NCBI GenBank assembly: GCA_026122225.1
Contig: JANEZZ010002239.1
Span: 868,001-932,000, forward strand
Reading direction: 5' to 3'
Length of the DNA: 64,000 nt
Source of the DNA: Heloderma charlesbogerti
Taxonomy: Eukaryota > Chordata > Lepidosauria > Squamata > Helodermatidae
This document shows positions 5,349 to 40,397 of the stretch, piece after piece. How positions within the stretch are numbered: the first letter of the stretch is position 1; each line of letters starts with the position of its first letter. The notes beneath the pieces are model-generated. The model was not told where the DNA came from and did not search any database. It worked only from the letters and a program-made list of their open reading frames with translations. Position numbers and translations under genes: made by a program.

Positions 5349-6103
5349 TAGGGATGGTGGAGAATTCCACCACAGATCTCAGTGAGGCCGAATGCCAGTG
5401 CATTCGGCCACCTGAAATCTGTGGCGGAACGAATCCCCCCCGCCCCACTACCCTGCGAAAGGCGCGTGAAACGGAGCACCTACCTTCACGATTTTTCACC
5501 GTGATAGGCTACATAAATACTTACATAGCCTATCACGGCTAACGCAGGGACGCCATTTGCATCCCTGTGGAGGCCATGATAGGCTACGTAAATATTTACG
5601 TAGCCTATCACGGGAAAAAAAAGGGAACACAAATGGCGGCCACTGTAGCTGCCATTTGTGTTCCCTCTTATTTGCTGTGATAGGCTACGCAAATATTTAT
5701 GTAGCCTATCACAGCAAAAAAAGGGAACGCAAATGGTGGCCGCCGTAGCCGCCGTAAATATTTACGTAGCCTATCACGGCAAAAAAAGGGAACGCAAATG
5801 GTGGCTGCCATAGCCGCCATTTGCATTCCCTTTTTTTGCCGCGATAGGCTACGTCAATATTTACGTAGCCTATCACAACAAAAAAAAGGGACGCAAATGG
5901 CAGCAGCTACGGCAGCTGCCATTTGCATTCCTGCGCAGCCCAGCAGCGGCCAGATGTCACTGCGGGCAGCCCTGGCCGGCGGCTCCGTGGAGTTGCTGTG
6001 GAATGGAGCTGGCCGGTGAGGATTTCGGGGGGAGGGTCGGAGTGCCTCCCCCCCACTGTGGATGTCACGAAACGAAACAGGTAAGTCATTTCGTACATCC
6101 CTA
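5349..6103 (+). mobile_element. Foldback hAT-like element, copy A (5 palindrome modules)
   Basis: Starts TAGGGATGG and ends CGTACATCCCTA. It is flanked by a perfect 8-bp target duplication, gtactgtg, at 5341-5348 and 6104-6111. The left arm is itself a hairpin (ccgaatgc/gcattcgg inside ccacagat/atctgtgg). The interior chains about five palindromes built on gataggctacgtaaa and tttacgtagcctatc (near 5499, 5577, 5678, 5841, with a half-copy at 5750), alternating with gcaaatggcggc-type stems. GTAAGT occurs at 6081 on the plus strand and a GTAGGT-type donor match at about 5479-5484 on the minus strand, both pointing outward. There is no transposase reading frame, so it is non-autonomous. hAT membership is inferred from the duplication length and termini. 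Confidence 0.88.
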
Positions 6104-6369
6104 GTACTGTGTAGATATGTCTGTTGGGGTGGTTGTGTATGTGTAATTGTGATGGATAAGGCAGTTATGACATGACCACTGTCCCAAAAGTGTCCCTGGT
6201 GACACTCGCAACACTTCCATCCTCACAGAAAAACATGTGAGAGTTACCTGGGCTGGAGAAGGAATGGCTATTTCCTAGCAACTGCATTTCATGTTTTGGG
6301 TGTAGGGAAACAATGACCTGGTTTGCACAATCACTGGAGCCCACTGTGGCTTAAATAAGCCATGGTGGC

Positions 6370-6440
6370 TTTATTTATTTATTTCATCACCGCCCAATAG
6401 CCGAAGCTATTGCAGCCCCCACGGGTGCCAAGTTGCTGAC
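6370..6440 (-). repeat. LINE 3'-end fragment (minus strand)
   Basis: tttatttatttatttcatca followed by ccgcccaatagccgaagcta is the reverse complement of a LINE 3' end like the longer copy at 55873-56350. Only about 70 bases are recognisable. Confidence 0.4.
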
Positions 6441-6749
6441 TCAAGTCCCTCCCCCCATCATCTTCTCATGTTGTCCAAACCTGGGAAAGGTGGCTTGTTG
6501 GGGTGGTTAACAAACAACCCCACAACCCTACAACTGGCCATGGATTCTGGGTGATTTGTTAACCACCCCCAACAGGCCATCCTTGCCAGGTTCCGATGAC
6601 ACGAGAAGCTATGCCTGGAGAATGTAATTATGTAAATCAGGCAGGCACACAACAGGCACACACAGGGTGATTAACATGCCACCATGGCTTATTAACCACC
6701 CTTGTGTCTTACAGACCATGGAAATAGCTGCCGGTGGCATCCCCCCTCC

Positions 6750-7079
6750 CCGCTTTATTACATTTTTATCTCACCCTTCCTCATAGAATAGTAGGGTTGG
6801 AAGGGGCCTCTATAAGACCATTGAGTCCAACCCCCTGCTCAATGCAGGAATCTAAGTTAAAGCATCCCTGACAAATGGCTGTCCAGCTGTCCAACTCCTC
6901 AAAAGAGTTCAGGGTGACATAGATGGTTTACCTACCAGCACCACCATTTTATCCTCCCAACAACCTGTTAGGTACATTACATTAGACATTGTTCCATGGT
7001 CAGCTGTGCAGGGCTCAAATCCAGATAACCCCAAGTCTAAAACCAAGACTCTGGCCACTATACCACACATAGCTACACA
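6750..7079 (-). mobile_element. tRNA-derived SINE (minus), interrupted by a CR1 fragment
   Basis: Read on the minus strand, the right part (7079 downward) begins with a tRNA-like head: tgtggtatagtggccagagt, then the B-box-like ggatttgagccc. It continues with aacaggttgttgggaggata (about 6966-6947) and, left of the insertion, ends gaagggtgagataaaaatgt. The CR1 piece at 6783-6899 splits the SINE near its 3' end. Confidence 0.65.
6783..6899 (-). mobile_element. CR1 LINE 3' end fragment (minus strand)
   Basis: catagaatagtagggttgga, aggggcctctataagaccat and tgagtccaaccccctgctca are the reverse complement of the CR1 3' end seen on the plus strand at 42050-42130 (ggactcgatggtcttatagg, ccccttccaaccctactatt). 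It is inserted in the SINE around it. Confidence 0.85.
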
Positions 7080-7129
7080 ATTTGGTTTGGAAAAGGACAG
7101 TGCTTAGAAAAGCCAAAATACCCCATAAT

Positions 7130-7743
7130 TAGGTATGGCGGAGAATTCCGCTACAGGCTACAATGAGGCTGGATTCTTTAGAATCCGGCCCCCCAGAGTC
7201 CATGGTGGAATGAAACACTTACCTCTGCCTCGCCGTGGAATCCTCTTCGGCCGGATCCTCTGGCTCCGGATTGCCAGCGATATGGCCGCCATGCCATATC
7301 GCTGGCTGAAGGGGACTGACTGGATGCAAATGGTGTCCCGGATGTCATTTGTGAGTGTAAAGGTCTTAGTTTAAGGTAAATGCAGCTGTAAATGCATCCT
7401 GGATGCCATTTGCGGCCCTGTTTTTTCATGCGATAGGCTACACAAATATTTGTGTAGCCTATCGCGTGAATGAAAAGCATGGACTTAAATGGCGGCCATT
7501 TGTGGCCATAAAGGTCTTAGTTTAAGCTAAATGCAGCCAATGCAGCTAAATGCAGTTAAGTCCCCTTCAGCCAGTGATACGGCATGGCGGCCGTATTGCT
7601 GGCGCTTTAGACCCTGCTGGCGGCTCCGCGGAATCGCCGCAGTGTGGAGCCAGCCAAAGAGGATTCCGGAGGATGGACGAGTTGCCTCTCCCCTATGGGT
7701 GGATTCCCCACGGACCAGCAGGTAGGGAATCCACCCATCCCTA
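7130..7743 (+). mobile_element. Foldback hAT-like element, copy B (1 central palindrome)
   Basis: Starts TAGGTATGG, ends CCATCCCTA, and has a perfect 8-bp duplication cccataat at 7122-7129 and 7744-7751. The left-arm hairpin is present in diverged form (ggattcttta/gaatccgg). A single central palindrome, gcgataggctacacaaa with its mirror, lies at 7428-7467. Much of the interior is mirrored around it: ggtcttagtttaagg at about 7361 and ggtcttagtttaagc at about 7511 are a direct repeat, while ccagcgatatggcc (about 7274) and ggccgtattgctgg (about 7589) are inverted. An outward ACTTACCT match is at 7217-7222; the right-end donor is the weaker GTAGGG at 7722. Confidence 0.85.
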
Positions 7744-8034
7744 CCCATAATCATGTATATACTGTACCCTAATGTCTGCTAAAACAAAAGCCTATGATTG
7801 TTGCTGTCTGTTGTTATTTCTCTCCGGACCTATCAGCAGAAGACCTTGAGCTCATATGCTCCCTCAGCTTTCTGGCTCCTTTTATCAACCATAGGGAGAA
7901 CTGAGCAACCAAACGAATAGTTCTTGGAACATGGGAACTTCCATGGGAGATTAAACCATTGAGGCCCACTCATGATCCTTCCCTGGGAACAATCCTGGAG
8001 GAATGGGGGGAACGAAGTCTGAACATGTGGTTTA

Positions 8035-8260
8035 CACCACCACCACAAACATGGTTGAATACATAAGGATTCAAACCCAGATGCTGAAGAGCTAAACTCT
8101 CAAAGCCCTGGGCTTGGATGGACAATCTGTTATTTTTGGTTTCTCCCACAGTCAAGTGTTTTGAATTTCAGGTTCTTTTTGTCCTGATTATGGAGAGCTT
8201 TACAAATTTTGGTGAATTGTAATCAAAACTGAAATGAAATTGAATTCTCACCCATCCCTA
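8035..8260 (+). repeat. Unnamed interspersed repeat, related to 14340-14570
   Basis: Shares ordered motifs with 14340-14570: ccacaaacatgg, ttgaatac versus ctgaatac, aaacccag, aagagcta, ctcaaa, tggatggacaa versus tggacgacaa, then ttttggt near the end and a final ttctcacccatcccta versus a diverged counterpart. The end resembles an hAT terminus, but the other end was not defined. Confidence 0.5.
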
Positions 8261-8268
8261 CTTGCTGC

Positions 8269-9094
8269 TAGGGATGGATGAAAGTCACTTACCTGATCCC
8301 GAAGCTTGCTTCGCGGTGGTGGGGAGGCGCCTCGTCCCTCCCTGCCGAAATTCTGGCCGGGGGGGAGGCGCCTCGTCCCTCCGGCCGCAAAACCTCTCCT
8401 GCCGGGACGCAAATGGCGGCGGCCGTAGCCGCTGCCGTTTGCATCCCTGCAGTCAGCCGTGATAGGCTACGTAAATGTTTACGTAGCCTATCACGGCTGA
8501 CTTTGAAAAAAAAAACCGCGTATGCAGATGGGCGCCGCCATTTGCATTCCTTATTTGGGCACGTGTAGTCTATGAAAACATTTATGTAGACTACGGCGAA
8601 AATAAGGGCAACGCTATTTGCGTTGCCCTTATTTTCGCCGTAGTCTACATAAATGTTTACGTAGACTACACGTGCCAAAATAAGGAATGCTAATGGCGGC
8701 GCCCATAGGCGCTGCTATTTGCATACGCGCGTTTTTTTTCAAAGTCAGCTGTGATAGGCTACATAAACATTTACGTAGCCTATCACAGTGTTTTTTTTAA
8801 AATCTAGCCGTGATAGGCTACGTAAATCTTTATGTAGCCTATCACGTTTGTTTTTGTTTTGTTTTTTTTACTTGGAAATGGTGGTGGTGGCAGCCGGTCG
8901 GAAGACCGGCCGCTGCAGCCGCTGCCACCACCGAACTGCCGCTGGAGCTGCCGCCGCCGCCAGGGACATTTGAGCAAGGTAAGTCCCGTCCCGGGGGGGC
9001 GGGGGGCAGACCGTTTCTCCACCAATTTCGGGGGGCCGAATGCGCTGGCATTTGGCCTCCTCGAGATTTGTGGAGAAATTCTCTGACATCCCTA
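8269..9094 (-). mobile_element. Foldback hAT-like element, copy C (inverted; giant nested palindrome)
   Basis: Orientation is reversed: it begins with the right arm (TAGGGATGGATGAAAGTCAC) and ends with the left-arm hairpin (ctctgacatcccta). Ttgctgc flanks both sides, but the left copy abuts the element (8262-8268) and the right copy is four bases away, so the duplication is imperfect. The interior 8451-8786 is one large palindrome with arms of about 165 bases centred near 8619, itself made of smaller palindromes. The one at 8451-8502 has perfect 25-base arms. A second module type, gtagtctacgtaaa-like, occurs at about 8560 and 8637. Outward donor matches: ACTTAC at 8287-8292 and GTAAGT at 8979-8984. 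Confidence 0.82.
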
Positions 9095-10654: not shown

Positions 10655-11182
10655 TAGGGATGTCAGAGAATTCCGCCACAGACCCCCGGAGTCCGTGGCG
10701 GAACGGCCTCCCCCGCTCGCCACCCCCTGGAATCCCCCCGGGATGGACCTACCTGGTGGCGGATGCGGTGGTGGCGGATGAGGTGGTGGCGGATGGAGTG
10801 GCGGTGGCAGCGGCTACAGCCGCTGCTGGGCTGCTGTGGCCGCAAGTAGCGGCTGCCATTTTCATCCCTACGTTTGCCCATGATAGGCTACGTATATATT
10901 TACGTAGCCTATCACGGCTAAAGCAGGGATGCAAATGGCGTCCCCTACGCAGGACGCCATTTGCGTCCGCAGCAGCCCGGCAGTGGGTAGAGGCCCTGCT
11001 GTGGATTGGCCTGGCCGGCAGCTCTGCGGACTGGCTGCAGAGCAGAGCCAGCCAGGCAGGATTCCAGGGGGAAGGAACGGATCACCTCCCCCCCGTTGAG
11101 GATTCCGGAGGGAGGAACGGATCGCCTCCCCCTACCTGCAGACCCCAGTGGAACCAGGTAAGTGGGGTTTCGTACACCCCTA
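10655..11182 (+). mobile_element. Foldback hAT-like element, copy D (1 palindrome)
   Basis: Starts TAGGGATGTCAGAGAATTCC and ends TTTCGTACACCCCTA, with a perfect 8-bp duplication ctccttgg at 10647-10654 and 11183-11190. The left arm lacks the inner ccgaatgc hairpin. One palindrome lies at 10878-10919, flanked by cgccattt-type stems. The left interior has an unusual run of ggtggcggatg repeats (about 10752-10800). Outward donor matches: a GTAGGT type on the minus strand at about 10749 and GTAAGT at 11158-11163. Confidence 0.88.
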
Positions 11183-11190
11183 CTCCTTGG

Positions 11191-13690: not shown

Positions 13691-13694
13691 TTTT

Positions 13695-13850
13695 AAATAA
13701 ATAAATATTTTCAGCGGGTATTAGTTTGTTTAAATTATTTATTGTTTTATACTGTTTAAATTGATTTTATCTGTACGCTGCCCTGAGATCTTAACGATAT
13801 AGGGCGTGATAGAAATGTTTTCAATAAATAATAAATACAAATAAAATCCT
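13695..13850 (+). mobile_element. L2/CR1-type LINE 3' end
   Basis: ttattgttttatactgttta, then gtacgctgccctgagatctt, then atagggcgtgatagaaatg and an (aataaata)n tail. This is the typical order at the 3' end of L2-like LINEs. Similar ends occur at 28790-28912 and 62284-62490. Confidence 0.65.
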
Positions 13851-14078
13851 GAGCTCTTGGTTCAACACTTGTGCACTAAATGGGAAGCAAACAAAGCTGG
13901 GAAAGATACAGGTCCATTTTATGGCTGTATTACAACGTGCTTCCTGCTGTGGACTGCACTGCCTATGCTGGTTCTGTCCTCAGTGCCCCAAGTAGCATGA
14001 ATGGGCAAGGATTGGTAGGAAACTACCTTGGGAGTGGGGCTTGTCACACATGCTTACTGATAGATACGCACAGAACAG

Positions 14079-14580: not shown

Positions 14581-16280
14581 TTCTCTTGAAATACTAGAGC
14601 CCTCGACATGCCTATATTTATAGGCCTTGATGGTCTGTCACTGTTCCAATCTGCTTCTTTTGTTCCTACATGCACACAGACCTACCTTCATTTTCACCTT
14701 CTCTCCCAAACTACTATGGCTTTCACATTCCAGAAATTCCAGAGTGGTCTCCCATTCAAAACACAAAATAATAAAGATCTCCAACATGTCCTAACCATTG
14801 TTTCCCATTGGGAAAACATCTACCAGGCATTATGGGCCATTAACAAGCAATTTGCTCTGACAATTGCTTGTTTATATATAGATTATATAGATATTGTAAA
14901 GCACTGGGTATACTAAAAAAGAGTAAATAGTTGCATCTAAAATATAAGAAACATACAATCTGAAACTACTGAAAAAGAACAATATGAGAAATAAAAACTG
15001 GCCATACTTTGCTCAGTTAATACTTCAATAAAGGATGTCTCCATTAAAAATCCACCAGTTCTATTATTCCTAGTAAAGCCAGAAACATCTGTCTATAGCA
15101 GTATTAAAGAATTATTAAAGAAAAAAATCCTAAGCCATTGTAAAGATGTGCCATAAGGGCTGGAAGCAGGTTTACCGTCTGTATCAGAAAGAAACCTAGT
15201 GCTTGACCCTCTAAAAAAACAAATCAACTCAGGCTTTCAGAACTTAACTGCGCATTAAACCACTTGAAACACAAGTCAAACAGTACAGAGATCTCTGGAA
15301 GACCACCTTTAATTCAGTGTCAAATCCTGATTTTTCCAGTGATCCTATACCAAGGACAATATGCTATTTGCAGAACACCTCAATATTAGAGAAAGAAGCA
15401 CCTAGAAGGGAGCAGGTGGTGAGTTACCAACTGAAAACTTAATGGGAAAATATCTATATAGCATAGAATAGATGAGTCCCTAACTGGTGTAGGAAAAGCT
15501 AATTTAATCAGCTTTATACAAATTATACAGGGAAATTTAAAGGTAATTAAAACTAGGTATGTATGAAACCTTCCCATTTTGTTCTGTGAATATTTCCACC
15601 TTGCTGAACAATGACACTGCGTGTTTGTGACAATTATATTCATCAAGGTAGAATTTTTCATGCTGTTAATATCGTATCCTTGCTGCAAATGTTCTTTGTA
15701 TCTTGGATTAAATATTCTGCATGCAAAAGCACAATCCTGGCAATTGTATATTCTTGCCTATTCTGTACAGTTCTTCAATACCTTGTGCAAGTCATCACTT
15801 TTTGAGTGTGTGTGAATCTGCAAAAGAAACTTACTTCTTTATTCTGCACATTTATCTGCAGCTACAAATACGGAATTTTCACATTGGGAAGCAAGCATCA
15901 CGGCCCTTTTCAGTGCCCATAATCATAACGAATAAGAAGGCATTAAGGAAATAATTTTCATCACTATATTATGAAAGTTTGATAGCTACTGATAACTGAA
16001 CAAGGCAGAGAGGTAGGAAATCTATTATTGTCTCACAGAATAAATAAGTAACTGAACTGTCAATGACCCTGAAATTCAACACATCATTCATTGCATATTA
16101 ACTGCAGAGTGTATTTAACCTTTAGGAAAGAAATGCCACATGACGCACACAAGATCAAAATATTGGGTTGTATCCAATGTTAGTCTAACTTAAGAGCTGT
16201 GAATCTTGCGTATAAGGCTATGGGCACATCCTGCCGATCACCATTTTTAAAAGACTTATACACAAGATTCATGGCTCTAT
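14581..16280. other. Non-coding AT-rich stretch, no gene recognised
   Basis: No recognisable coding frame or repeat. Short overlapping frames in 15386-15954 have AT-rich, low-complexity translations and no conserved motif. Confidence 0.4.
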
Positions 16281-16299
16281 TTTGTATATAAGTCTATGG

Positions 16300-16466
16300 G
16301 CACATCCTGCCAATCGCCATTCTTTTAAGCAACATGGTTATCAGCATGGAGGCGAATGGGCCCAGGTAAGTGGCCCTCAAGCTGGGTGGCTCCGCAGAAT
16401 CCTCGCGCCTCCCCCCCCGGGCAGATTCCCCACCGGAACGGACGGTGGGGAATCCGTACATCCCTA
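16300..16466 (+). mobile_element. Foldback hAT-like element, right-end fragment (copy E)
   Basis: Ends ccgtacatcccta and contains cccaggtaagtggccctc and a stem of gattccccacc with ggtggggaatc just before the end, as in the right end of copy B. The left end and the gatagg palindromes are missing, so the start is approximate. Upstream, two direct repeats carry ctatgggcacatcctgcc (about 16219 and 16294). Confidence 0.55.
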
Positions 16467-16717
16467 ATTATATCCTATCTATCACTCGTAATTTAAGGCC
16501 TTTCCAGACAGCTCTGTTCCAGGGGGTGTCTTCACAAGCGATTTAGTGTGAAGTTAGAGCAGTTTGGGTTCCTTCGCAACAGATGACCAGTCCACTGCCA
16601 ACCAGCCACTTCCCTCCCGAAAAGCCGCATTTTCTGAAACTCCCTTTACTCTGACTTTTTTTTTTACTGAAAGCAGCTCCCTAGTGGTTTTACCACAGCG
16701 TGTCATGTCCCCCCGGC

Positions 16718-16718
<1 letters not shown>

Positions 16719-16744
<26 letters not shown>
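16719..16744. repeat. (CA)n microsatellite
   Basis: About twelve CA dinucleotides at the left edge of the repeat that follows. Confidence 0.95.
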
Positions 16745-16748
<4 letters not shown>

Positions 16749-18599: not shown

Positions 18600-19272
18600 T
18601 AGGGATGTTAGAGAATTCCGCGACAGATCTCGGTGAGGCTGAATGCCAGTGCATTCAGCCCCCCAAAATCTGTCGTGGAACGAAGCCCCTGCCCCCCCAA
18701 CCCACGAAAGGCGCGCGGGGCGAAGTCCCCGCCATCCCCAACCCACAAAAAGCATGCGAAACGGAGCACTTACCTGCTCCTGTCCGCGCTGCTTTGCGAA
18801 TGACGGCCGTCCTGCGGCCGCCATTCGCTTCCTCCTCTTCATAGCCGTGATAGGCTATGTAAGTATTTACGTAGCCTATCATGGCAGGGGGGAAAAAACC
18901 CAGCATACGCAAATGGCAGTAGCTGCTACCATTTGTGTATGCTGGGTTTTTTCCCCCCTGCCATGATAGGCTATGTAAATATTTACATAGCCTATCACGG
19001 CTAAATACAGGGACGCAAATGGCGGCGGCTACGACAGCCACCATTTGCGTCCCTGCAGGGATGCCCAGCAGCCGGATGTTCGGTTGCGGGTGGCTGGAAC
19101 CAGCCGGCGGCTCCGTGGCTTGGCCGCGGAGCGGAGCCGGCCGGGCAGGATTCCAGGGGGGAGGACAGGATCGCCTCCCCCCCCATCGAGGATTCCGGGG
19201 GGAGGGATGGAGCGCCTCCCCCCCACCACGGAAACAGAATGAAATAGAAGGTAAGTGTTCTGTCCATCCCTA
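18600..19272 (+). mobile_element. Foldback hAT-like element, copy F (2 palindromes)
   Basis: Starts TAGGGATGTTAGAGAATTCC and ends CTGTCCATCCCTA, with an 8-bp duplication acttcaag / aattcaag (7 of 8) at 18592-18599 and 19273-19280. The left-arm hairpin is intact. Two palindromes (18842-18886 and 18958-19002) face each other across a longer palindrome containing acccagcatacgcaaatgg and its mirror. Outward donor matches: ACTTAC at 18768-18773 and GTAAGT at 19251-19256. Confidence 0.87.
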
Positions 19273-19980: not shown

Positions 19981-20448
19981 TAGGGATGTTAGAGAATTCT
20001 GCCACGGATCCCAGGGAGGCCTAATTCCAGTGAATTCGGCCCCCCGGAATCTGTGGCGGAATGGACCAACCCGCCCCACCACCCCGCAAAAGCCCAGCAA
20101 AACGGAGCCTACCTGGCTGCGGCTCCGGTGGCAGATAAAGCAGTGGTGGCAGCATTTGTGTCCTTGCTTTAGCCATGATAGGCTACGTAAATATATACGT
20201 AGCCTATCATGGGCCAGTGTAGGGACGCAGATGGACTCACATTTGCATCCGCAGCAGCCTGGCAGCGGCTGGAGGCCCCACTGCGGGTTGGCCTGGCCGG
20301 CGGCTCCGCGGACTGGCTGCGGAGCGGAGCCGGCCGGGCAGGATTCCAGGAGGGAGGAACAAATCGCCTCCCCCCCCCATCGAGGATTCCGGGGGGAGGA
20401 ACGGATCGCCTCCCCCCACCTGTGGACCCCAGCGGAGCCAGGTAAGCG
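19981..20448 (+). mobile_element. Foldback hAT-like element, copy G, right end missing
   Basis: Starts TAGGGATGTTAGAGAATTCT with the usual left-arm hairpin (ctaattccagtgaattcggc), one palindrome at 20172-20213, and the usual right arm up to ccaggtaagcggggc. There the element stops and repeat X copy 2 begins, so the CATCCCTA end and the target duplication are absent. Outward donor matches: a GTAGGC type on the minus strand at about 20107 and GTAAGC at 20442-20447. Confidence 0.8.
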
Positions 20449-21165
20449 GGGCATGCCTCTGTGACCTGGCAGTGATGTGGTCAAGGGAGTGGGATGCCCC
20501 ATTCCCTCTTGTTTCCCCAAGAGAAGTAGTTTTTCCCATTGAGAAAATCCCCAGGAGCGCAGCAGTGATCCCTCACATTACCGCAGTAGTGGGGACACTC
20601 ATTCACCTTAGCTAGCCTGCTTTCAATCTTTAACGTATCCTTTCTTGCTCTTTTAAATCGCTATTATGATGTTGTGCTTCTTTGATGTTCTCTAGTTTCT
20701 CTGTTGTTATGTTAAGTCCCTTCTCCGCTTTATCGCTTTATTGCAGTAACGATCTTTCGGGTTTATGGGAGTTTCTTATTGCGAGCAGGGAGAAGGAGAA
20801 AGGGGGGTTGGAAGAAATAGGCAAAAGTGTACACCTGGGGAAAATGGTGTGGCAGCAATAATTCTGCAACAGATTGCTGGGATGCAGCAAAATTGTGGTG
20901 GGGGCGAGCTCTCAGGAGCATTCAGATGCTGCACTGGAGAACTGGGGATTTTGTTTTTTTCAGGGAAATCTGCACACACAGGAAAAATTAGTCGCTCTCC
21001 ATTCATGATGTAGTAGCAGGGGGGAGCCTGGACAGGGACAAGAAACAAACCTCTTTCATTGGTTGAACAGCCCCTGCCAGCTTGAGGACGTTCAGTTCTA
21101 CACCCCCCCCCACATCACATGTATGTTCCTTTCAAGCACTGAAAACCAGATTTTAAAGATACACT
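20449..21165 (+). repeat. Unnamed long interspersed repeat X, copy 2
   Basis: Homologous to 16745-17595 (see there), lacking its 110-base internal block. It abuts the truncated end of foldback copy G with no intervening sequence. Confidence 0.7.
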
Positions 21166-22462: not shown

Positions 22463-23518
22463 AAAGAACAATATTGTTTAGGAACCTGGAATGTAAGATC
22501 AATGAATCAAGGTAAAGCTGGAGGTGGTTAAACATGAGATGGCAAGACTGAACATCGACATCTTGGGAATCAGTGACTAAAATGGACAAGCATGGGCGAA
22601 TTTAATTCAGGTGACCACCATATCTACTACTGTGGGCAAGAATCCCTTAGAAGAAATGGAGTAGCACTCATAGTCAATAAAAGGGTGGGAAAAGCAGTAC
22701 TGGGCACAATCTCAAAAATGATAGAATGATCTCAGTGCAAATCCAAGGCAAACCATTCAACATCACAGTAATTCAAGTCTATGCCCCAACCACGGAGGCC
22801 GAAGAAGCTGAGGTTGATCGGTTCTATGAAGACCTACAACACCTTCTAGAACTAACACCAAAAAAAGATGTCCTCTTCATCATAGAGGATTGGAATGCTA
22901 AAGTAGGAAGTCAAGAAATCACCGGGATAACAGGCAAGCATGGCCTTGGTGTACAAAATGAAGTAGGGCAAAGGCTAATAGAGTTTTGCCAAGAGAACAC
23001 GCTGATCATAGCAAACACTCTTTTCCAACAGCACAACAGGCGACCCTACACATGGACATCACCAGATGGTCAATATCGAACTCAGATTGATTCTGTCCTT
23101 TGCAGCCAAAGATGGATAAACTCTATACAGTCAGTAAAAACAAGACCAGGAGCTGACTGTGGTTCAGATCATGAGCTTCTTGTTGCAAAATTTCAGCTTA
23201 AATTGAAGAACGTAGGGAAAACCACTAAACCTTTCAGGGATGACCTAAATTATATCCCTTATGAATATACAGTGGAGGTGAGGAATAGATTTAAGGGATT
23301 AGACCTGATAGACAGAGTGCCTGAGGAACTATGGATGGAGGTCTGTAACATTGTTCAGGAGGCAGCAACTAAATCCATCTCAAAGAAAAAGAAATGCAAG
23401 AAAGCCAAGTGGCTGTCTGATGAGGCTTTACAAGTAGCTGAGGAAAGAAGGGAAGCAAAAAGCAAGGGAGAAAGGGGAAGATATATCCAACTGTATGCAG
23501 AGTTCCAGAGAATAGCAA
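22463..23518 (+). pseudogene. BovB endonuclease region, broken
   Basis: The region encodes an APE-type endonuclease. A first piece reads QYCLGTWNVRSMNQGK, then shifts frame and meets stops between about 22515 and 22725. A long clean frame runs from 22726, with VIQVYAPTTEAEEAEVDRFY, then DWNAKVGS, YTWTSPDGQYRTQIDSVLC, and the catalytic-loop motif GSDHELLVAKF. Residues KKKKCKKAKWLSDEALQ follow as the linker. A Glu stands before DWNAKVG where RTE elements normally have Gly. The frame is cut at 23518 by foldback copy H. The enzyme would nick the target DNA for retrotransposition; this copy cannot make it. Confidence 0.88.
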
Positions 23519-24229
23519 TAGGGATGTCAAAGAATTTCACCACGAATCTCAGGGAGGCCGAATGCCAGCGCATTCGGCCCCCCGAAATCTGTGGTGAAAT
23601 GGTCTGCTGCCCCCTTCCCCCCCTCCCGGGACAGGACTTACCTTGGGCAAATCTTCCTGGCGGTGGCGGCTCCGGCGGCGGCCAGTCTTCCGACCGGCTG
23701 TCACCGCCGCCATTTCCAGTAAAAACAAACAAACAAACAAACAAAAAGTGATAGGCTATGTAAAGATTTACGTAGCCTATCACGGCTAGATTTTTAAAAA
23801 ATACCGTGATAGGCTACATAAATATTTATGTAGCCTATCATGGCTGAATAAAAAAAGACAAAAAACGCTATTTGCGTTCCCCTTATTTTCGCAGTAGTCT
23901 ACAGAAATGTTTACGTAGACTAGACATGCCAAAATAAGGAACACAAATGGCGGTGCCCATGGGCGCCGCCATTTGCGTACGCATGTTTTGTTTTTTACTC
24001 AGCCGTGATCGGCTACGTAAACATTTACGTAGCCTATCACGGCTGACTGCAGGGACGCAAACGGCAGCGGCTACGTCTGCTGCCGTTTGCGGACCCGGCT
24101 GGCCAGGTTTCGGGGGGGGAGGGACGGAGTGCCTCCCCCCCGGCCAGTATTTCGCGGGGAGGGACGGAGCGCCTCCCCCCCACCTCGAATCACATTTCGT
24201 TAAAAGGTAAGTGACATTCGTACATCCCT
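23519..24229 (+). mobile_element. Foldback hAT-like element, copy H (4 palindromes), inside BovB
   Basis: Starts TAGGGATGTCAAAGAATTTC and ends ATTCGTACATCCCT(A). The duplication aatagcaa (23511-23518 and 24230-24237) shares the element's last A, and removing it restores the BovB frame aatagcaagtaggg. It has an intact left-arm hairpin (ccgaatgccagcgcattcgg), palindromes at about 23748, 23804 and 24002, and the second module type at about 23890. Outward donor matches: ACTTAC at 23636-23641 and GTAAGT at 24207-24212. No reading frame of its own. Confidence 0.92.
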
Positions 24230-24514
24230 AATAGCAAGTAGGGACAAGAAGGCCTTCTTAAATGAACAATGCAAAGAAATCGAGGAAAACAGAATGGGAA
24301 AGACTAGAGATGTTTTCAAGAAAATCTGAGATATCAAGGGAACGTTTTGTGCAAAGACGGGCATGATAAAGGACAAAGAAGGCAGGGACCTAACAGAAGC
24401 AGATGAGATTAAGAAGAGGTGGAAAGAATACACAGAGGAACTGTACAGGAAAGATCTGAATGTCCCTGATAGCCAGGAATAGTGCGGTCACTGAACTTGA
24501 GCCGGACATCCTAG

Positions 24515-24957
24515 TAGGGGTGCACGAAAGTCACTTACCTGATCTCGCAGCTTTTCGCGGTGGGGGGGAGGCGCTTCGCTGCTCCCCCCGCGAAGTTCAG
24601 GCCGGGGGGGAGGCTTCCCGCCTCGCCCGGCCGAAATTCAGGCCGGGGAGGAGGCGCCTCGCCCGGCCGCGAAATTAAAAGTAAAAAAAAAACAACAAAA
24701 AACGCCCCCGTGATAGGCTATTGGAATGGCGGCGGCGGCAGCCGGTCGAAAGACCGGCTGCCGCTCCCGCCCCGGACGAAGACCGGACGAACCGCCGGCC
24801 GGACCCACCGCCGGGAGGGACATTCGCCAAAGGTAAGTCCCGTCCCAGGGGGGGTGCGGGGGGTGCAGAGAATTTCTCCCCGAAACTTGTTCGGGGGGCC
24901 GAACACATTGGCGCTTGGCCCCCCGAAGTTTCGGGGAGAAATTCTCCGCCAACCCTA
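24515..24957 (-). mobile_element. Foldback hAT-like element, copy I (palindromes deleted), inside BovB
   Basis: Reversed orientation: starts TAGGGGTGCACGAAAGTCAC and ends ATTCTCCGCCAACCCTA. It has a perfect 8-bp duplication catcctag at 24507-24514 and 24958-24965. The only palindrome remnant is a half copy, cgtgataggcta at 24708-24720, joined directly to ttggaatggcggcggc. This is the shortest copy (443 bases). Outward donor matches: ACTTAC at 24533-24538 and GTAAGT at 24833-24838. Confidence 0.92.
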
Positions 24958-24965
24958 CATCCTAG

Positions 24966-26460
24966 AGAATGAAGTCAAGTGGGCCTTAGGAAGCATTACT
25001 AACAACAAAGCTAGCAGAGATGGCAGTATTCCAGCTGAGCTATTTAAAATCCTAAAAGATGATGCTGTTAAAGTGCTGCACTCAATATGCCAACACATTT
25101 GGAACACTCAACAGTGGCCACAAGACTGGAAAAGGTCAGTTTACATTCCAATTCCAAAGAAGGGCAATGCCAAAGAGTGTTCAAACTACCGCACAATTGC
25201 GCTCATTTCACATGCCAGCAAGGTTATGCTCAAAATCCTACAAGCTAGGCTTCAGCAGCATGTGAACCGAGAACTACCGGAAGTACAAGCTGGGTTTCGA
25301 AGAGGCAGAGGAACTAGAGATCAAATCGCCAACATTCGCTGGATCATGGAGAAAGCAAGAGAATTCCAGAAAAACGTCTATTTCTGCTTCATTGACTATG
25401 CTAAAGCCTTTGATTGTGTGAATCACAACAAACTGTGGCAAATTCTTAAAGAGATGGGAGTACCAGACCACCTTACCTGTCTCCTGAGAAACCTGTACGA
25501 GGGTCAAGAAGCAACAGTAAGAACCAGACATGGAACAACCGATTGGTTCAAAATTGGGAAAGGAGTATGACAAGGCTGTATATTGTCGCCCTGCTTATTT
25601 AATTTATATGCAGAGTACATAGTGAGAAATGCCGGGTTGGATGAATCAGAGGTCGGAATTAAGATTGCCGGGAGAATGATCAACAACCTCAGATACACAG
25701 ACGATACCACCCTAATGGCAGAAAGCGAAGAGGATCTAAAGAGCCTCTTGTTGAGGGTGAAAGTGGAGAGTGCAAAAGCTGGTTTGAAAGTCAACATTAA
25801 AAAAACTAAGATCATGGCATTTGGCCCTATCACTTCCTGGCATACAGAAGGGGAAGAAATGGAAGCAGTGACAGATTTTATTTTCTTGGGCTCCAAGATC
25901 ACCGCAGACGGTGACTGTAGCCATTAAATTAAAAGACGCTTGCTCCTTGGGAGGAAAGCTATGGCATACCTAGACAGCGTAGTAAGAAGCAGAGACATCA
26001 CCTTGCCGACAAAGGTCCGTCTAATCAAAGCTATGGTTTTCCCAGTAGTAATGTATGGCTGTGAGAGCTGGACTATAAGGAAGGCTGAGTGCCGAAGAAT
26101 TGATGCTTTCAAACTGTGGTGCTGGAGAAGACTCTTATGAGTCCCCTGGACTGCAAGGAGGTCAAATCAGTCCATCCTAAAGGAAATCAACCCTGAGTGC
26201 TCATTGGAAGGACAGATACTGAAGCTGAAGCACAAATATTTTGGCCACCTAATGCAACGAGAAAACTATCTGGAAAAGACCCTGATGCTGGGAAAGACTG
26301 AAGGCAAAAGGAGAAGGGGATGGCAGAGGATGAGATGGCTAGATAGCATCACCGATGCAATGAATATGAACTTCAGCACACTCCAGAAGAGGACAGGGGA
26401 CAAGAACGCCTGGCATGCTATAGTCCATTGGGTCACAAAGAGTCGGACACGACTTAACGA
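24966..26460 (+). pseudogene. BovB reverse transcriptase region, broken
   Basis: After copy I the frame resumes with EVKWALGSIT, then ELFKILKDDAVKVLHSICQ, IPIPKKGNAKECSNYRTIAL, VQAGFRRGRGTRDQIANIRW and CFIDYAKAFDCVNHNKLW. These are the RT motifs of RTE-clade LINEs. The active site reads YTDD (25691-25702), with Thr where Ala is usual. Frame-breaking stops include tga at 25567 (after KIGKGV), taa at 25925 (after GDCSH) and tga at about 26138 (after RRLL). A further frame at 26204-26464 encodes the conserved C-terminal MRWLDSITDAM and SRTRLND. All the pieces are in the right order, so only point changes inactivate it. Confidence 0.92.
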
Positions 26461-26473
26461 CTGAAGAACAACA

Positions 26474-27299: not shown

Positions 27300-28555
27300 A
27301 GGCACATCCCAGGGAGGCTGTGGAACTCTCAAACCAGTGTGTGGAGGCTGTTTTGCGATGGATGACAGTGAATAAGCTGAAACTTAATCCAGACAAGACG
27401 GAGGTACTGTGGGTTGGGAAACCAACTACTTCGGATGGAGGTTTACAGCTGGTCTTAGATGGGGTTGCACTCCCCCTGAAAGACCAAGTGTGCAGTCTGG
27501 GAGTCCTCCTGGACCCTGAGCTAACTGGGGAAGCCCAGGTGGCTGCAGTGTCCAGGAGTGCTTTTTACCAGCTTAGGCTGGTACGCCAACTGCGGCCCTA
27601 TCTGGAGAGGACGGACCTTGCCTCAGGTATCTACGCACTAGTAGGGATGTCAGAGAATTTCGCCACGAATCTTGGGGAGGCCGAATGCCAGCACATTCGG
27701 CCCCCCGAAATCGGTGGCGGAATGGTCTGCCACCCCCCCCCCGCCACCCCCCTGGGACGGGACTTACCTTGGGCGGATCTTCCTGGCGGTCGCAGCTCCG
27801 GCGGCGGTTCGGCAGCGGCGGCCGGTCTTCCGACCAGCTGCCGCTGCCGCCATTTCCAGTTAAAACAAACAAACAAAAAAACGTGATAGGCTACGTAAAG
27901 ATTTACATAGCCTATCACGGCTAGATTTTTAAAAAACACCGTGATAGGCTACGTAAATGTTTACCTAGCCTATCACGGCTGATTTAAAAGAAAAAAAACA
28001 CACGCGTGTACGCAAATGGTGGTGCCCATTGGCGCCGCCATTTGTGTTTCTTATTTTGGCACGTCGTAGTCTACGTAAACATTTACGTAGACTAAGATGG
28101 CGAAAATAAGGGGAACGCAAATAGCGTAGACGTGCTATTTGTGTACGTGCGTTTTTTTTTCTTTTAAATCAGCCATGATAGGCTACGTAAATATTTACGT
28201 AGCCTATCATGGCTGAGTGCAGGGACACAAACGGCGGCGGCTACAGCCGCCACCATTTGCGTCCCTGCTAGCCAGCGGCCGGATGTCCGGCCACTGGCGG
28301 AGCCGGCCGGCGGCTCCGCAGAATCCCTGTGGAGTGGAGCTGGCCGGCCAGAATTTTGGGGGGGAGGGACGGAGCTCCTCCCCCCCGCCAGAATTTCGGG
28401 GGGAGAGATGGAGCGCCTCCCCCCCACCACGAATGTCACCCTTCGAAGAGGTAAGTGACTTTCGTACATCCCTATGCACTAGTCACATCCAGGATGGACT
28501 ACTGTAATGCTCTACATGTGGGGCTGCCTTTGAAGATGGTTCAGAAACTCCACCT
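27300..28555 (+). pseudogene. L2-type LINE reverse-transcriptase fragment, split by foldback copy J
   Basis: 27344-27641 encodes WMTVNKLKLNPDKTEVLWVG, then SLGVLLDPELTGEAQVAAV, SRSAFYQLRLVRQLRPYLER and TDLAS. This is the thumb-side part of the L2/CR1-group reverse transcriptase. After the insertion at 27642-28474 the same frame continues with LVTSRMDYCNAL and GLPLKMVQKL until about 28555, where a (CA)n tract starts. The fragment has neither 5' nor 3' end of the LINE and cannot be functional. Confidence 0.82.
27642..28474 (+). mobile_element. Foldback hAT-like element, copy J (4 palindromes), inside L2
   Basis: Starts TAGGGATGTCAGAGAATTTC and ends ACTTTCGTACATCCCTA, with duplication cgcactag / tgcactag (7 of 8) at 27634-27641 and 28475-28482. 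It has the left-arm hairpin ccgaatgccagcacattcgg, palindromes at about 27882, 27938 and 28170, and a second-type module at about 28062. Outward donor matches: ACTTAC at 27762-27767 and GTAAGT at 28451-28456. Module order is the same as copies H, C and K. Confidence 0.92.
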
Positions 28556-35507: not shown

Positions 35508-35586
35508 CAGGCCTGCACAATTTACAATCCACCAACTCAAATGCAGATTGCTAGCCTTGTATGGCAAGTCACCAGGTGTTTGTTAA

Positions 35587-35620
<34 letters not shown>

Positions 35621-35742
35621 GGGAAGAGGCTGTTGCAGCTTGTCTGGAATTGCCAAAATGGGGTTGCCAAGGATGTGGCAGGCCACAATATATGACTCGT
35701 GCACTACATTTGGTTTGGTAGTTTGCAACTTGGGCAGGCCTG
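35508..35742 (+). mobile_element. hAT-type MITE with 8-bp duplication
   Basis: Terminal repeats CAGGCCTGCACAA and TTGGGCAGGCCTG. The flanking 8 bases are tcctagat (35500-35507) and tcctagca (35743-35750), 6 of 8 identical. A (TG)n tract at 35590-35618 lies inside. No coding capacity. Confidence 0.78.
35590..35618. repeat. (TG)n microsatellite
   Basis: About fourteen TG units inside the hAT-type MITE. Confidence 0.95.
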
Positions 35743-38700
35743 TCCTAGCAGATGTTCCTAAACTCCTTCATTAATTCTCACATCCTTACCAGGTAACTCT
35801 TTCCTCTTACTTGCACTCTCCCTGGAGGGAAAAGACTTTAGGGAACCCTTGCAGGTAAGTTGACAAACTTTACTAGCTCAACACTTTTCCATACCTGTAT
35901 TAGCCATTTGAGACTTGAAAGAATCTCCCTCCTCCCGAATAAATCCCCAATTTACAGCAGCGTCCCTGTCTCATTGCCTGCTTTCACGTAGCTCCATGTG
36001 AACATTAGAGCTTGTATGTATGTACCGGAGCCACTAGAACTTTGGGACCCTATCTACCTCATGCACAACTACAATTGCAGTTTTTGAAATAACTCAGAAG
36101 GCTGTATAAATTTGTTCAGTTTAAGTGTTTAAAGGTAGCAGGCACATAAATAAGCCAGGCACGGACAAACTGGGGCTGAAGGTGCATTTCTCAGACAGAG
36201 CTGCCAGCTGCCTTGGCTTATTGGCAGGCCATTTATCATCTCAAGAAAAATATTGATGGTTCACAAGATTCACACTTGCCCTGGCCCTGGGCTGAAGAAA
36301 TGCTGTCTTCCACGAAGTCTTTGAAAATGGAACCAAGCCAGGGAACTATGCCTCAAAAGGAAGGGAAGGCATAATCTTAAGGAACAAGAGAAAAGTGGGA
36401 AGAGTCTTGGAATAAAATGCTGGCCACAAAGGGAAGTCAGTCATTGCAACATCCCTGATCTTGGACATAGGTTTCTAACAGCTGCATTTGGTAAAAGTTG
36501 CCTCAGCTGATTGGTGAGTTATTGGTTCTTGTCTTGCTTCGCTCATGTAAATGTAGGTGTGTACTAGATGAACATGTCCAAAGACTTGGCCAATGTCACT
36601 CCTGGCTGATAGACCTATTGTTCAGGAATAAGTTATAAGAGCCTGAAGAGGCATTTTGATTTTTACCAGTGTTGGTTCAGCCCATCTTAAGCCAATGACT
36701 TAAGGGCGTGGGCCGAGGACACACTGTAACGCACAGCGCATTACTGCAGGGTGGAGCTGCACAAGTGACAGACTTTCCAAGGAGTTCTCCATTGGGGCTT
36801 ACTGCAAACAACTTATCCCAGCTGGGGTTAAGGTTCCCACTTCAGCATAAAGTCCTGTAACCCTGAGCAGTGCAGCCCCTGTGGGATGCTTGGCGCAAAG
36901 CCCCTTTAGCCCTCAGGGGCTGCCATAAGGTACTGACGGATTTGTTTTGAGCCAAACTATACGTTTCGCAATCGTGTAATGTGTAGCTGAAGGTTACCTT
37001 TTTTTTTTTACTCTAGTGTAAGCATGTGCAGCTCTAATTCAAATCAGGACCACTGTGCACTGAGAGGGGAGGATTAAACCTTCCCCCTCCACCAACATTT
37101 TCCTCCTGAAATTCCCCTTTCCATGGGGGGGGGTTAAAAAAAGAGGGGGAAAGCCTCCATTGATACAAATGGAGACTTTGTTTTTCTTTTCTAACTTTGT
37201 TTTTCTTTTGTAATTTTGAAGTGCAGGAACTCATCATGACAGATCCTATAATCACATCCCCAGGAAAGTCCAAACTTTCAGGCAGCTATGTTGATCCATA
37301 TCAACGAACCAGTTCTAGCAGGTTTCATTGCCACTAGGATCAGGTCTTTTGTAAAGCTTATGGATTTTACTTGCCCACTCAATACCAAGCCACCCCAAAA
37401 TACTTTGCTTTACAACAGGGAACAATATATTGTTCCTGGAAGAATTCATTTCCCTTCAGCTACTGTGAGGATTGCCCTAAACTCTGAAGAACAGGGAAGT
37501 CTGAGGGAGATGACAGATGGTGTCAGCAACCCTGGTAATAAAAAAATGCTAGCACTGCGTCCTAGTGAGCCCTGGCTCCACTATACCCCTGCTGAAGAGA
37601 AAAGAGCAATAGCCGTCTTCTAGCCTCATACAGCAGCATTTTATAGCAGCGGCTCCACCCCCAGGTGTGTGACAGAGTCTGAAGACCATACCTGCATCCC
37701 AGGACTGTGTAGCCAGAGGCAGGGCCAAGAGCCCCTGAATGCTCACCTTTGCCCAACTCCGTTATTGGACTTCTATCCAGTCCTATTTTGTTAGTAGCCA
37801 AATTGTGGAAAGCTCTATCGAGAAGTGTGGGTTGTTTTTCGAAAGCATAGGAGAGTGGTTGATATATGAAGGAGAATCAAAGCAAGAACTATAGTAAGCC
37901 TAGGATTTGTGATTCTGCTGAAAGGCAGGGATTTCTGGGGAGCCTAAGAGATCTGTCTGTGTCTCCACAGGATTTAGGTACCTTACTGTTGCATGCTCCC
38001 TGGGTCAGCGTCTAAATCCTATGGCCAGAGACTTGAGGAGTAAGAGAGCAAAATATACAATTATGAGGATACAGTCTTCTGGTTAATGATAAGTACACAG
38101 GATGGGGCACAGATGGACATATCCTGCATGTATGTTAACTGCCACGAATAGTTAACAGCCATGGATACCAGGTCCACTTAAATGGAAGACTGGTGAAATG
38201 ATTAACATTCCCTTATAAAAGCAGCAGCAACATAAACAATACTGTGTTCAGTGACAGCTCCTGGCCCCATCTCAATTCAGAATGGGCTCATCTAAAACAC
38301 ATTATTTTACATACACACACACTGTCTTGAAAAATAAGTTGCATTATTTCCAAGTTGGTTCCAAACTTCAGACTTTGTCATGGTCCTCGTGACATCCTCA
38401 GAAGTGTGATTGGGCCCAAGCTTCTCCTAGGGCACCACACACCCTACCTTTTCCCTTTCTGCCAAACATAACTGGTGGTGGCGATGAAACCACAGCAGCT
38501 CGAGAAGTGAAGGGCTGGCATTGGGGCCTTCATTATACCTGTGAATGCTACTGCATCAATGTCCCAAATACAAGGACTTTTGAGAAAAGTATTCTTCCCA
38601 GTCTTGTGACTCTCAGGATAGGGCTGAACTCATCCCCCTCACACACACAAATGCTCATTCTATCAAACTTGGGGGGCATTTTGGTACCCTCCAACACAAG

Positions 38701-38770
38701 GTGTTGGTGCAGTTTCAGAGGAATCAAGGCCCCAAAATGTTGTAGAGGAGGGGCTGCTTACCGTGCTGGT
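35743..38770. other. Non-coding stretch, no gene recognised
   Basis: Contains GC-richer patches around 36700-36930 and 37030-37260 that may be old repeats, and no frame with recognisable protein similarity. Confidence 0.35.
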
Positions 38771-38774
38771 TTCC

Positions 38775-38828
<54 letters not shown>

Positions 38829-38870
38829 CTTCCTTCCTTCCTTCCTTCCTTCCTTCCTTCCTTCCTTCCC
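38775..38870. repeat. (TTTC)n followed by (TTCC)n microsatellite
   Basis: About twelve tttc units, a tct break, then about ten ttcc units. Frames across it encode only low-complexity peptides. Confidence 0.95.
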
Positions 38871-39374
38871 TCCTCTTTCTTTCCCAGCTAGCATCATTCC
38901 AAAGGCACTTGAGGGAGTGCGGGAGTGTGGTAGCAGCCAGAGTTCCACTTACAATTTAAAAACAAAGAGGAGCAGGGGGAGGGAAGAATGGAAGCCAGCA
39001 TGGTAGGTCCCCCCTCCCTCCTGAAACATTTTGGGAGTCTAGCATGAAAGGAAATAGGTAGTTGTGGGAAGGGTTCATTCTGATGTTGGTGCCTAGCCCA
39101 TCACAAGCTGGGCCCTAAATCTGTAAGGGTTTGGGCTTGGTTCATAGCGGCCTGGGAATATACCCAAATTGCAAGATTTGCCACCATTACTATTCAAAAC
39201 CTGTTTTAGAATCTGCTAAACTGGGATTTCAAGACTGGATGTTTAGTATGAATAGGGAGAGACAGATTTCATTTCATCTGAGAAACCATGACATTTAGTG
39301 CACTGTGCTCAAGTTAAAGGACTAATTACATACATTTGACTAAAAGGCACAGAAGCAAAAGTACCAGTAAGTCT

Positions 39375-40397
39375 TGTTGTTGTTGTTCAGTTGTTAAGTC
39401 ATGTCCGACTCTTCTTGACCCCATGGACCAGAGCATGCCAGGCCTTCCTGTCCTCCACTCTCTCCTGGAGTGTGCTCAAGTTAGGGATGGCGGAGAATTT
39501 CTCCACGAATCTCCGGGAGGCCGAATGCCAATGCATTCAGCCCCCCGAAATTAGTGGTGAAATTCTCCGCCGGCCCCCTGCCCCCCCCGCCCGGGATGGG
39601 ACTTACCTCATGCAAATGTCCCTCTCCGCAGCGGGTCCTGGTGGCGGTTCGGCGGTGGTTTGGTGGGGGCGGTGGCAGCGGCCGGTCTTCTGACCGGCTG
39701 CCGCCGCCGCCATTGCAAAATAAAAAAGGAAAGGGAAAAAAAAAACACCCACACCCGTGATAGGCTACGTAACGATTTACGTAGCCTATCACGGCTAGAT
39801 TTCCAAAGTCAGCCGTGATAGGCTACGTAAATCGTCACGTAGCCTATCACGGGTGACTTTGAAAAAAAAAAAAAGTGCGTACGCAAATGGCGGTGCCCAT
39901 GGGGCGCCGCCATTTGCGTTCCTTAGTTTGGCACGTCTAGTCTACGTAAAGATTTACGTAGACTACGGCGAAAATAAGGGCAACGCAAATAGCCCATGGG
40001 CACCGCCATTTGCGTATGCACTTTTTTTTTCTTTCAAAGTCACCCGTGATACGCTACGTGACGATTTACGTAACCTATCACGGCTGACTTTGGAAATCTA
40101 GCCGTGATAGGCTACGTAAATTGTTACGTAGCCTATCATGGGTATGTGTTGTTGTTTTTTTTACTTTACTTTTTTTTTGCGGCCGGGTAGACGGGGCGCT
40201 CCTCCCCGGCCTGAATTTCGGCAGCGAGGGATGGGGCGCCTCCCCCCCAGCCTGAATTTCGGCCGGGCGAGGCGGGGCTCCTCCCCCCCTCACCTGAACT
40301 TCGGGGGGAGAACCGAAGCACCTCCCCCCTGCCGCGAAGCAAGCTGCGGGACCAGGTAAGTCCCTTTCATCCATCCCTAGCTCAAGTTCATATTCAT
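39375..40397 (-). mobile_element. BovB 3' end (minus strand), 5'-truncated, split by foldback copy K
   Basis: Read on the minus strand it is a BovB end: tattcat and ctcaag at the right, gagagtggaggacaggaagg in the middle, and the (CAA)n tail at the left (39375). A 12-bp target duplication accagtaagtct flanks it at 39363-39374 and 40398-40409. Only about 120 bases of BovB are present once copy K is removed. Confidence 0.88.
39482..40379 (+). mobile_element. Foldback hAT-like element, copy K (5 palindromes)
   Basis: Starts TAGGGATGGCGGAGAATTTC and ends CTTTCATCCATCCCTA, with a perfect 8-bp duplication gctcaagt at 39474-39481 and 40380-40387. It is the longest copy (898 bases). It has the left-arm hairpin (ccgaatgccaatgcattcag), palindromes at about 39755, 39812, 40044 and 40100, and the second module type at about 39936. 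The interior is mirrored around about 39975. Outward donor matches: ACTTAC at 39601-39606 and GTAAGT at 40356-40361. Confidence 0.93.

Follow-up and report, generated by a model that had tools for sequence, protein, structure and literature searches.

A palindrome-chain foldback family in Heloderma charlesbogerti and its apparent derivation from one end of a coding hAT transposon

A stretch of 64,000 nucleotides from the genome of Heloderma charlesbogerti (contig JANEZZ010002239.1, positions 868,001 to 932,000; hereafter the window) carries a series of short elements built from chained palindromes, which raises the question of where such a chain comes from and what moves the elements that contain it. 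An earlier reading of the letters alone (the sequence-only reading) had assigned the elements to a foldback family with hAT-like ends and had placed the palindrome chain outside the hAT design. This last point was not borne out, as the same palindromes occur in the right subterminal arm of a transposase-bearing hAT element of this genome, and by sequence comparison the chain derives from that one end. The small elements are very probably nonautonomous hAT members that move by cut and paste with a transposase supplied in trans by this ~9.4-kb relative, which has termini of the same kind.

The foldback family and its target duplications

The ten elements (A to D and F to K), 443-898 bp in size and including one truncated copy (G), were all present where the earlier reading had located them, spread over 5349-40379 and accounting for 6,752 of the window's 64,000 bases. 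Complete palindromes of the form GTGATAGG (P1), counted at no more than four mismatches per arm, number 22 and occur in nine of the ten, in agreement with the claim that only I lacks them, but their arms approximate GTGATAGGCTACGTAAA and an exact match on both arms occurs just once, in C at 8459. C, H, J and K also hold a second type of palindrome, with GTAGTCTACGTAAA arms. When 17-nt arms with no more than two mismatches are admitted, the window has 32 palindromes, versus none in each of 20 first-order Markov simulations. A 34-position palindrome score places 24 sites at 27 or above (all 22 P1, J's second-type palindrome, and at 5742 in A a degenerate one whose right arm is exact at 5761), four second-type sites at 22-25, and everything else at 19 or below, leaving a gap. 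The inverted repeats of K have 186-nt arms that are 90% complementary, the long, internally repetitive, stem-forming kind that characterizes foldback elements.

Matches of 8 bp directly flank seven of the nine two-ended copies (8/8 in A, B, D, I, and K; 7/8 in F and J), where the chance rate of a match of at least 7/8 between random window pairs is 6e-4. These are the seven duplications named in the sequence-only reading, and the eighth, in H, is AATAGCAA at 8/8 provided that the final A of the element is counted as duplication. No duplication had been noted for C; its flanks, CTTGCTGC and GTTGCTGC, nonetheless match at 7/8 given three additional bases past the right end, as read from the flanks. 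Across the whole genome, 21 of 30 left-end loci had a 7/8 or 8/8 duplication at length 8, a count that leans upward because the choice of right end also scored the 8-bp match, and in which two loci (L068 and L070) are apparently one locus counted twice. The same 30 loci gave no full match at lengths 6, 7, 9, or 10 and a single 6/7 match (L049), so that a test capable of overturning the consistent 8-bp duplication favored it. The remaining nine loci had no duplication of at least 7/8 at the chosen right end, and four of them (L048, L054, L071, and L072) are truncated or nested copies. Copies within or directly beside other copies recur (L072 at 1501-3017, L054 at 1501-2723, L042, and the right flanks of C1122 and C838, seen in L088 and L086), and some fetched loci are chimeras without a duplication.

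Three of the insertions lie in long interspersed nuclear elements (LINEs). Excision of H or I together with one duplication lets the frame run through the junction, and excision of J does the same in another LINE, as judged by eye from the frames alone. The LINE that holds H and I (22726-26460), which we take to be BovB-type, is split by insertions about 1 kb apart (23519 and 24515), with other stops and a shift also breaking its frame. Since both elements interrupt this LINE copy, both insertions are younger than it.

A coding hAT relative with palindromes in its right arm

A search with the hAT dimerisation domain (PF05699) scored 150 of 871 candidates, 17 of which had open frames of at least 850 codons by table count. 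Thirty fetched hAT loci all matched a single transposase stretch of 1,026 bp; leaving aside the locus from which that stretch came, the matching pieces were 85-97% identical to it. Two copies were fetched with flanks; one of them, C235, has family tips on either side of its frame, and the other, C1725, has the right arm. C235 is a 9,387-bp element running from TAGGGATGTCAGAGAA... to ...AGGTAAGTGACTTTCATCCACCCCAA, with CACAACAC on both flanks as an exact 8-bp duplication and P1 palindromes in its right arm, and is thus the coding relative with common ends and a hAT transposase that the sequence-only reading had proposed to look for. In eight further transposase copies, the right end was found near the predicted place in all eight and two P1 in seven (C810 has a single arm), with P1 lying roughly 160-340 bp inside the right tip. 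The left end reads TAGGGATG and the right end CACCCCAA in C235, CACCCCTA in seven of the eight others, and CATCCCTG in one. Of these further copies, C2955 is flanked by a 7/8 duplication of ordinary sequence. For C2152 the figure was 1/8, but it was taken from a TAGGGATG that is unlikely to mark the left end of the copy, as one of the full-length type lies just upstream. The left end of the full-length type has 73 + 66 = 139 genome matches and is exact in C2152, C3039, C3046, and C1122, immediately beyond the stretches fetched. Among 100 listed left ends of this type, 53 were followed on their own strand, 3-16 kb downstream (median 5.7 kb), by a PF05699 match, a floor because only 150 of the 871 candidates were scored, while a PF05699 match of any kind 3-16 kb upstream was found for one.

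The frame of C235 spans 879 codons and includes a BED finger and the Dimer_Tnp_hAT domain (PF05699, E 1.3e-16). A 14-row profile aligned with the Hermes transposase at E 3e-47, and D335, D407, C426xxH429, and E805 aligned with the Hermes letters, positions that we take to be the catalytic residues of a hAT transposase. The five best database proteins, among the 7,990 candidates with most common words that were scored, are squamate proteins at 36-42% identity, one of them named ZBED4-like. A role of CxxH in hAT transposases is described in an earlier study (PMC4763223). Long open frames, domains, and catalytic alignment together predict that the partner encodes a hAT-type transposase.

The ends tie the small elements to this partner. 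The family termini TAGGGATG and CATCCCTA have the same first 8 bp as Ac, and TAGGGATGTCAGAGAA and AGGTAAGTGACTTTCG..CAYCCCTA are common to small and large elements. Of the 30 terminal bases that the earlier reading expected a relative to share, nearly all are found at the right tip, where a 26-bp pattern is common to the small elements and all eight further transposase copies, but at the left the match covers ~22 bp. Duplications of 8 bp, the dimerisation domain, the D/D/E and CxxH residues, and short terminal inverted repeats of the (C/T)AGGG..TG type are all hAT features, and the hAT affinity proposed earlier is supported by the duplications, the termini, and the coding partner. No transposase was seen by eye among the listed open reading frames of the small elements (Pfam was not run on them), and their ends are those of a coding element in the same genome, as in nonautonomous, Ds-like hAT elements and miniature inverted-repeat transposable elements (MITEs). 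The partner's transposase is of the hAT type and not of the MULE or P type that accompanies Drosophila FB/MULE and Galileo/P foldbacks, and we rate the family as a foldback hAT MITE. That this very transposase mobilizes the small elements is suggested by the common ends.

Several observations weigh against this explanation. Left ends of small and large elements agree over their first ~22 bp only. Copy C1725 has the right arm without a clear left end or duplication; the 8/8 duplication of C838 is the low-complexity AAAAAAAG; C1330 has both ends with flanks that agree at 4/8 only; and a diverged copy of 908 codons (C356) has the left TAGGGATG with neither right end nor P1 within the 2 kb fetched. 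The 879-codon frame is bounded by stops on both sides, with codon 158, within the BED finger, as its first Met, so that an upstream exon must be assumed. P and Merlin transposons also make 8-bp target duplications, and the family could in principle belong to one of these superfamilies or to MULE-type foldbacks, with hAT a bystander that has inserted copies in common; at many places, small elements are indeed found within or next to hAT copies. Against this, the family termini close the hAT copies themselves at about the predicted distances, two of these copies have duplications of ordinary sequence (one exact, one 7/8), and left ends of the full-length type are directed toward hAT domains (53 versus 1 of the 100 listed). 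On these grounds, we judge the bystander explanation refuted.

Two candidates for the partner or its end were rejected. CATCCCTA, ~320 bp past the hAT domain, is followed by a flank, CTACACAC, common to most copies and is therefore internal, and L042, half foldback and half transposase, has no duplication. A scan of 5.6-kb stretches for terminal inverted repeats and target duplications gave nothing convincing, the element being longer. In the large element, a GAAAGTGAAATGGGCTC motif is present in the DNA just inside the left end (L075 at ~3800-3900, L073 near 3520) and is tandemly expanded in the C1725 copy, and the two ends are asymmetric, with P1 seen on the right side only.

Mirroring, abundance, and the palindrome array

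The plan of the small elements is seen in the alignment of K with the right arm of C838, whose last 463 bp match K from position 439 to its end at 80% identity and whose segment 94-334 aligns in inverted orientation with K 503-257 at 86%. K is composed of a left end, an inverted arm, and a direct arm, and the two arm copies overlap at the second-type palindrome, which forms the hinge; C and J follow this plan across long stretches, and the inverted match of H is shorter. We compared 37 sized copies, 28 from the genome and 9 from the window. The genome copies come from a 33-row table that selects for 7/8 duplications and is not evidence for duplication length, five rows having been dropped (I refetched, two L-L pairs, and the rows of J and K, already among the nine window copies); three of the 28 were fetched by arm and most others by exact left end or hAT-domain proximity, so the sample is not random. 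An inverted right-arm match of at least 100 bp was present in 31 of the 37. Because the arm is partly self-palindromic (self-matches at 224-323 and 21-157), the match was further required to span right-arm positions 158-223, and 29 of the 37 small elements qualified (25 of 28 from the genome and 4 of 9 from the window), as opposed to none of eight full-length right arms searched within the element (C235 whole, seven others over 1.5 kb). A count of 23 of 37 was dropped because, as the control showed, palindromes internal to the arm were enough to fulfil its rule. Inverted matches just beyond the right ends of C838 and C1122 lie in neighboring copies. Against the mirrored plan, eight of the 37 have no spanning match, and in the window it is confined to A, C, J, and K. 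L011, with a left end and a single direct arm, is plausibly the unmirrored form. On the left, where the small elements have a hairpin, they have only ~22 bp in common with the coding element. The mirroring itself may have arisen by snap-back copying (template switch) at the second-type palindrome, during replication or gap repair, and mirroring one transposon end would be a route to a foldback element.

The earlier claim of a multicopy family holds on a scale of tens of thousands of copies. In 2.30 Gb (3,246 contigs), the exact 17-nt arm had 80,660 + 80,134 = 160,794 matches (reversed control, 0 and 1), the 32-bp left end at up to three mismatches 33,848 + 34,046 = 67,894 (control, 0 and 0), and the 26-bp right end at up to three mismatches 59,255 + 59,226 = 118,481 (control, 2 and 0). 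As the left pattern catches seven of the ten window copies and misses three, the family probably has more than 68,000 copies, from which any haplotypes that the assembly holds twice must be subtracted. On contigs C11 and C12, L068 and L070 carry an identical element with an identical duplication, a probable duplicated haplotype, and genome counts may be somewhat inflated. The window is about threefold richer in exact arms than average (15 versus 4.5 per 64 kb). With a mean of 764 bp from the 37 copies and 68,000-118,000 end matches, the family is estimated at ~2-4% of the 2.30 Gb, a sizeable part of this genome, and a very abundant nonautonomous family can now be linked to a specific coding partner whose open frames are long. 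The 17-nt arm had no match in viral contigs.

The palindromes are better conserved than their surroundings. Between window copies, P1 units are 0.882 identical versus 0.794 and 0.775 for the left and right terminal 30 bp. In a larger set, palindrome units reach 0.833, versus 0.719 over the terminal 36 bp on the right and 0.771 over those on the left (the latter in the 20 copies that had not been selected by left end), and context-matched arms reach 0.856 versus 0.580 for 25-nt flanks, a flank figure that is biased upward; both larger-set and context-matched identities include some second-type palindromes. By strict count, 1-4 P1 are present in 36 of the 37 sized copies (33 of 34 leaving out the three fetched by arm). 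Better conservation of arms than of flanks or tips fits an array for transposase recognition, and the palindromes may be subterminal recognition sites of the BED-containing transposase, to which we give about an even chance. Two findings speak against such a role: eight copies with a single P1 by strict count have target duplications, and P1 has no AAGT, the Hermes BED motif. The tip motif AAGTGACTT is closer to that core, so P1 may serve something else.

With the AAGT core in the tip and with the single-P1 copies, neutral amplification is the chief rival to transposase binding. Under it, the right arm, prone to form hairpins, would have been duplicated through replication slippage and template switching and would have spread by hitchhiking on functional tips, which we consider possible, if short of probable. 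Array size does vary within the strict range, nested palindromes could propagate themselves at replication, arms of the same palindrome are hardly more alike (0.917) than those of other palindromes within an element (0.911), and the single-P1 copies either moved in that state or lost palindromes later. Against neutrality stand the conservation of P1 arms between copies beyond that of tips or flanks and the retention of at least one P1 in all sized copies save one; that sole palindrome-less copy, I, did not multiply, its deletion junction having two genome matches, I itself included, as for a private deletion.

Likeness of arms could instead come from gene conversion or cruciform-templated repair inside each element. 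Two-sided changes occur in 10 cells versus 3.5 expected (0 of 500 shuffles), and B has three symmetric changes, but relatedness alone can beat such shuffles, the two arm identities just given do not clearly support palindrome-specific correction, and conversion would not alone keep arms alike between loci. We regard this account as improbable. Binding of a host DNA-bending or chromatin factor that helps unite the two ends is likewise unlikely in our estimation; no host motif was identified, none having been looked for. In its favor, Hermes requires ~200 bp of each end in cells, mutation of its internal BED sites causes no dramatic loss of activity, and the authors of that study suggest a host factor (PMC10368747).

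On the reading that we consider very probable, the transposase of the ~9.4-kb relative acts on the small elements through the common termini. The palindromes would, at about even odds, be BED recognition sites, and a larger array would have raised the small elements' share of enzyme and helped them to outnumber the full-length-type left end ~500:1 (67,894 versus 139 pattern matches). In its strongest form, which we offer tentatively and hold for rather doubtful, one hAT end would be a polyvalent array in which palindromes of 36-40 bp follow one another and BED domains of the transposase bind cooperatively to each, and the mirrored 'super-end' would outcompete its source element for transposase, giving tens of thousands of copies versus ~139 left ends of the full-length type. 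If true, array length would be a dial for parasite fitness.

Elements of the window and comparison with known systems

Coordinates are collected in the table. The ends are less uniform than the sequence-only reading had them, varying in B, D, and I (the last with TAGGGGTG/CAACCCTA). The order of motifs is left tip, in most elements an outward AGGTAAGT-type site, half-units that mostly alternate in orientation, an outward AGGTAAGT-type site, and right tip, with some half-units absent, e.g., in A and I.

Family elements and derived features in the window (TSD, target-site duplication; window positions)
Feature	Positions	Strand	Description
Element A	5349..6103	+	755 bp; TSD GTACTGTG 8/8; four complete P1 at 5501, 5576, 5677, 5841
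Element B	7130..7743	+	614 bp; left end TAGGTATG; TSD CCCATAAT 8/8; single P1 at 7430 with three symmetric changes
Element C	8269..9094	-	826 bp, inverted in window; P1 at 8459, 8751, 8810; second type at 8565, 8640
Element D	10655..11182	+	528 bp; TSD CTCCTTGG 8/8; right end CACCCCTA; single P1 at 10880
Element E	16161..16466	+	relative, decayed or partial; AGGTAAGT at 16364; right end GTACATCCCTA at 16466; left limit set arbitrarily
Element F	18600..19272	+	673 bp; TSD ACTTCAAG/AATTCAAG 7/8; P1 at 18847, 18963 within an inverted repeat with 81-bp arms
Element G	19981..20450	+	right end lost, end position approximate; single P1 at 20175
Element H	23519..24230	+	712 bp; TSD AATAGCAA includes last A of element; P1 at 23748, 23806, 24005; second type at 23894
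Element I	24515..24957	-	443 bp, inverted; TSD CATCCTAG 8/8; deletion derivative; one half arm at 24710
Element J	27642..28474	+	833 bp; TSD CGCACTAG/TGCACTAG 7/8; P1 at 27883, 27941, 28175; second type at 28066
Element K	39482..40379	+	898 bp; TSD GCTCAAGT 8/8; P1 at 39757, 39815, 40046, 40104, mirrored about second-type palindrome at 39937
Inverted right-arm copy in K	39738..39984	-	K 257-503; 86% identical to arm of coding element
Direct right-arm copy in K	39920..40379	+	K 439-898, to terminus; 80% identical to arm of coding element
Right tip of K	40354..40379	+	terminal 26 bp containing AGGTAAGT, the right-end motif of the family

No left end was found in E, and repeated blocks peculiar to it occupy the DNA upstream (~16180-16330). 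Exact AGGTAAGT occurs 17 times in the window on both strands, 15 times in the ten elements, once in E, and once elsewhere. As AGGTAAGT/ACTTACCT, the 16 family-associated sites (e.g., 6079, 28449, and 40354) face outward near both element ends. Besides being part of the tip motif, outward AGGTAAGT is what we take to be a perfect 5' splice-donor consensus, and, given more than 100,000 right-tip matches in the genome (up to three mismatches), this could matter for host transcripts. The window also contains a CTC trinucleotide array of 407 bp (55467-55873) and a 31-bp tandem repeat directly after K (40853-40950); Rfam gave no match in it at gathering thresholds, and no tRNA gene was found in it.

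A literature search returned no account of a serial, mirrored palindrome array among ranked results that did not cover Repbase, Dfam, or most subscription papers, and the arm sequence strings retrieved only papers unrelated by title. Similar designs are known from other hAT transposons. Ac/Ds of maize, with termini (C/T)AGGGATGAAA..TTTCATCCCTA, resembles the present family in its first 8 terminal bp, its 8-bp duplications, its subterminal transposase-binding repeats, and its abundant short Ds forms with little but tips in common, whereas those forms are deletion, filler, or tip-only derivatives in the main text of PMC3260210, where 'palindrom' does not occur, and the binding repeat is a hexamer there as opposed to 36-40-bp palindromes here. 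Hermes of the house fly has a BED finger, an aligned catalytic region, and a palindromic subterminal site on a single end, and its BED domains bind a quasi-palindromic subterminal pair cooperatively at one end only (PMC10368747). It differs in having one small quasi-palindrome near the tip where the present elements have 36-40-bp palindromes ~160-340 bp inside the right tip, and mirroring in many small elements is a feature here. This one-ended binding opens the question of whether success among hAT copies is decided by palindromic arrays in their subterminal DNA, on which the natural series described here (1-4 P1 per copy by strict count, plus one copy with none) bears.

Among foldback elements, Galileo of Drosophila (P superfamily) has long, internally repetitive ends with many transposase binding sites, proposed to give specificity (PMC3688188), but belongs to another superfamily, has THAP instead of BED, and has tandem repeats where alternating palindromes are found here. 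Tetris/DAIBAM of D. virilis is nonautonomous and has terminal portions in common with a short element, and differs in its 220-bp internal tandem repeats and in that the abstract of PMC4079207 names no autonomous partner. The mar family, like other hAT MITEs, consists of elements without coding capacity related to hAT transposons, with no palindrome chain in the opening of its abstract (PMC3517528). Unlike the described kinds compared here, the present family has a serial palindrome array on one hAT end that is mirrored in many of its small elements.

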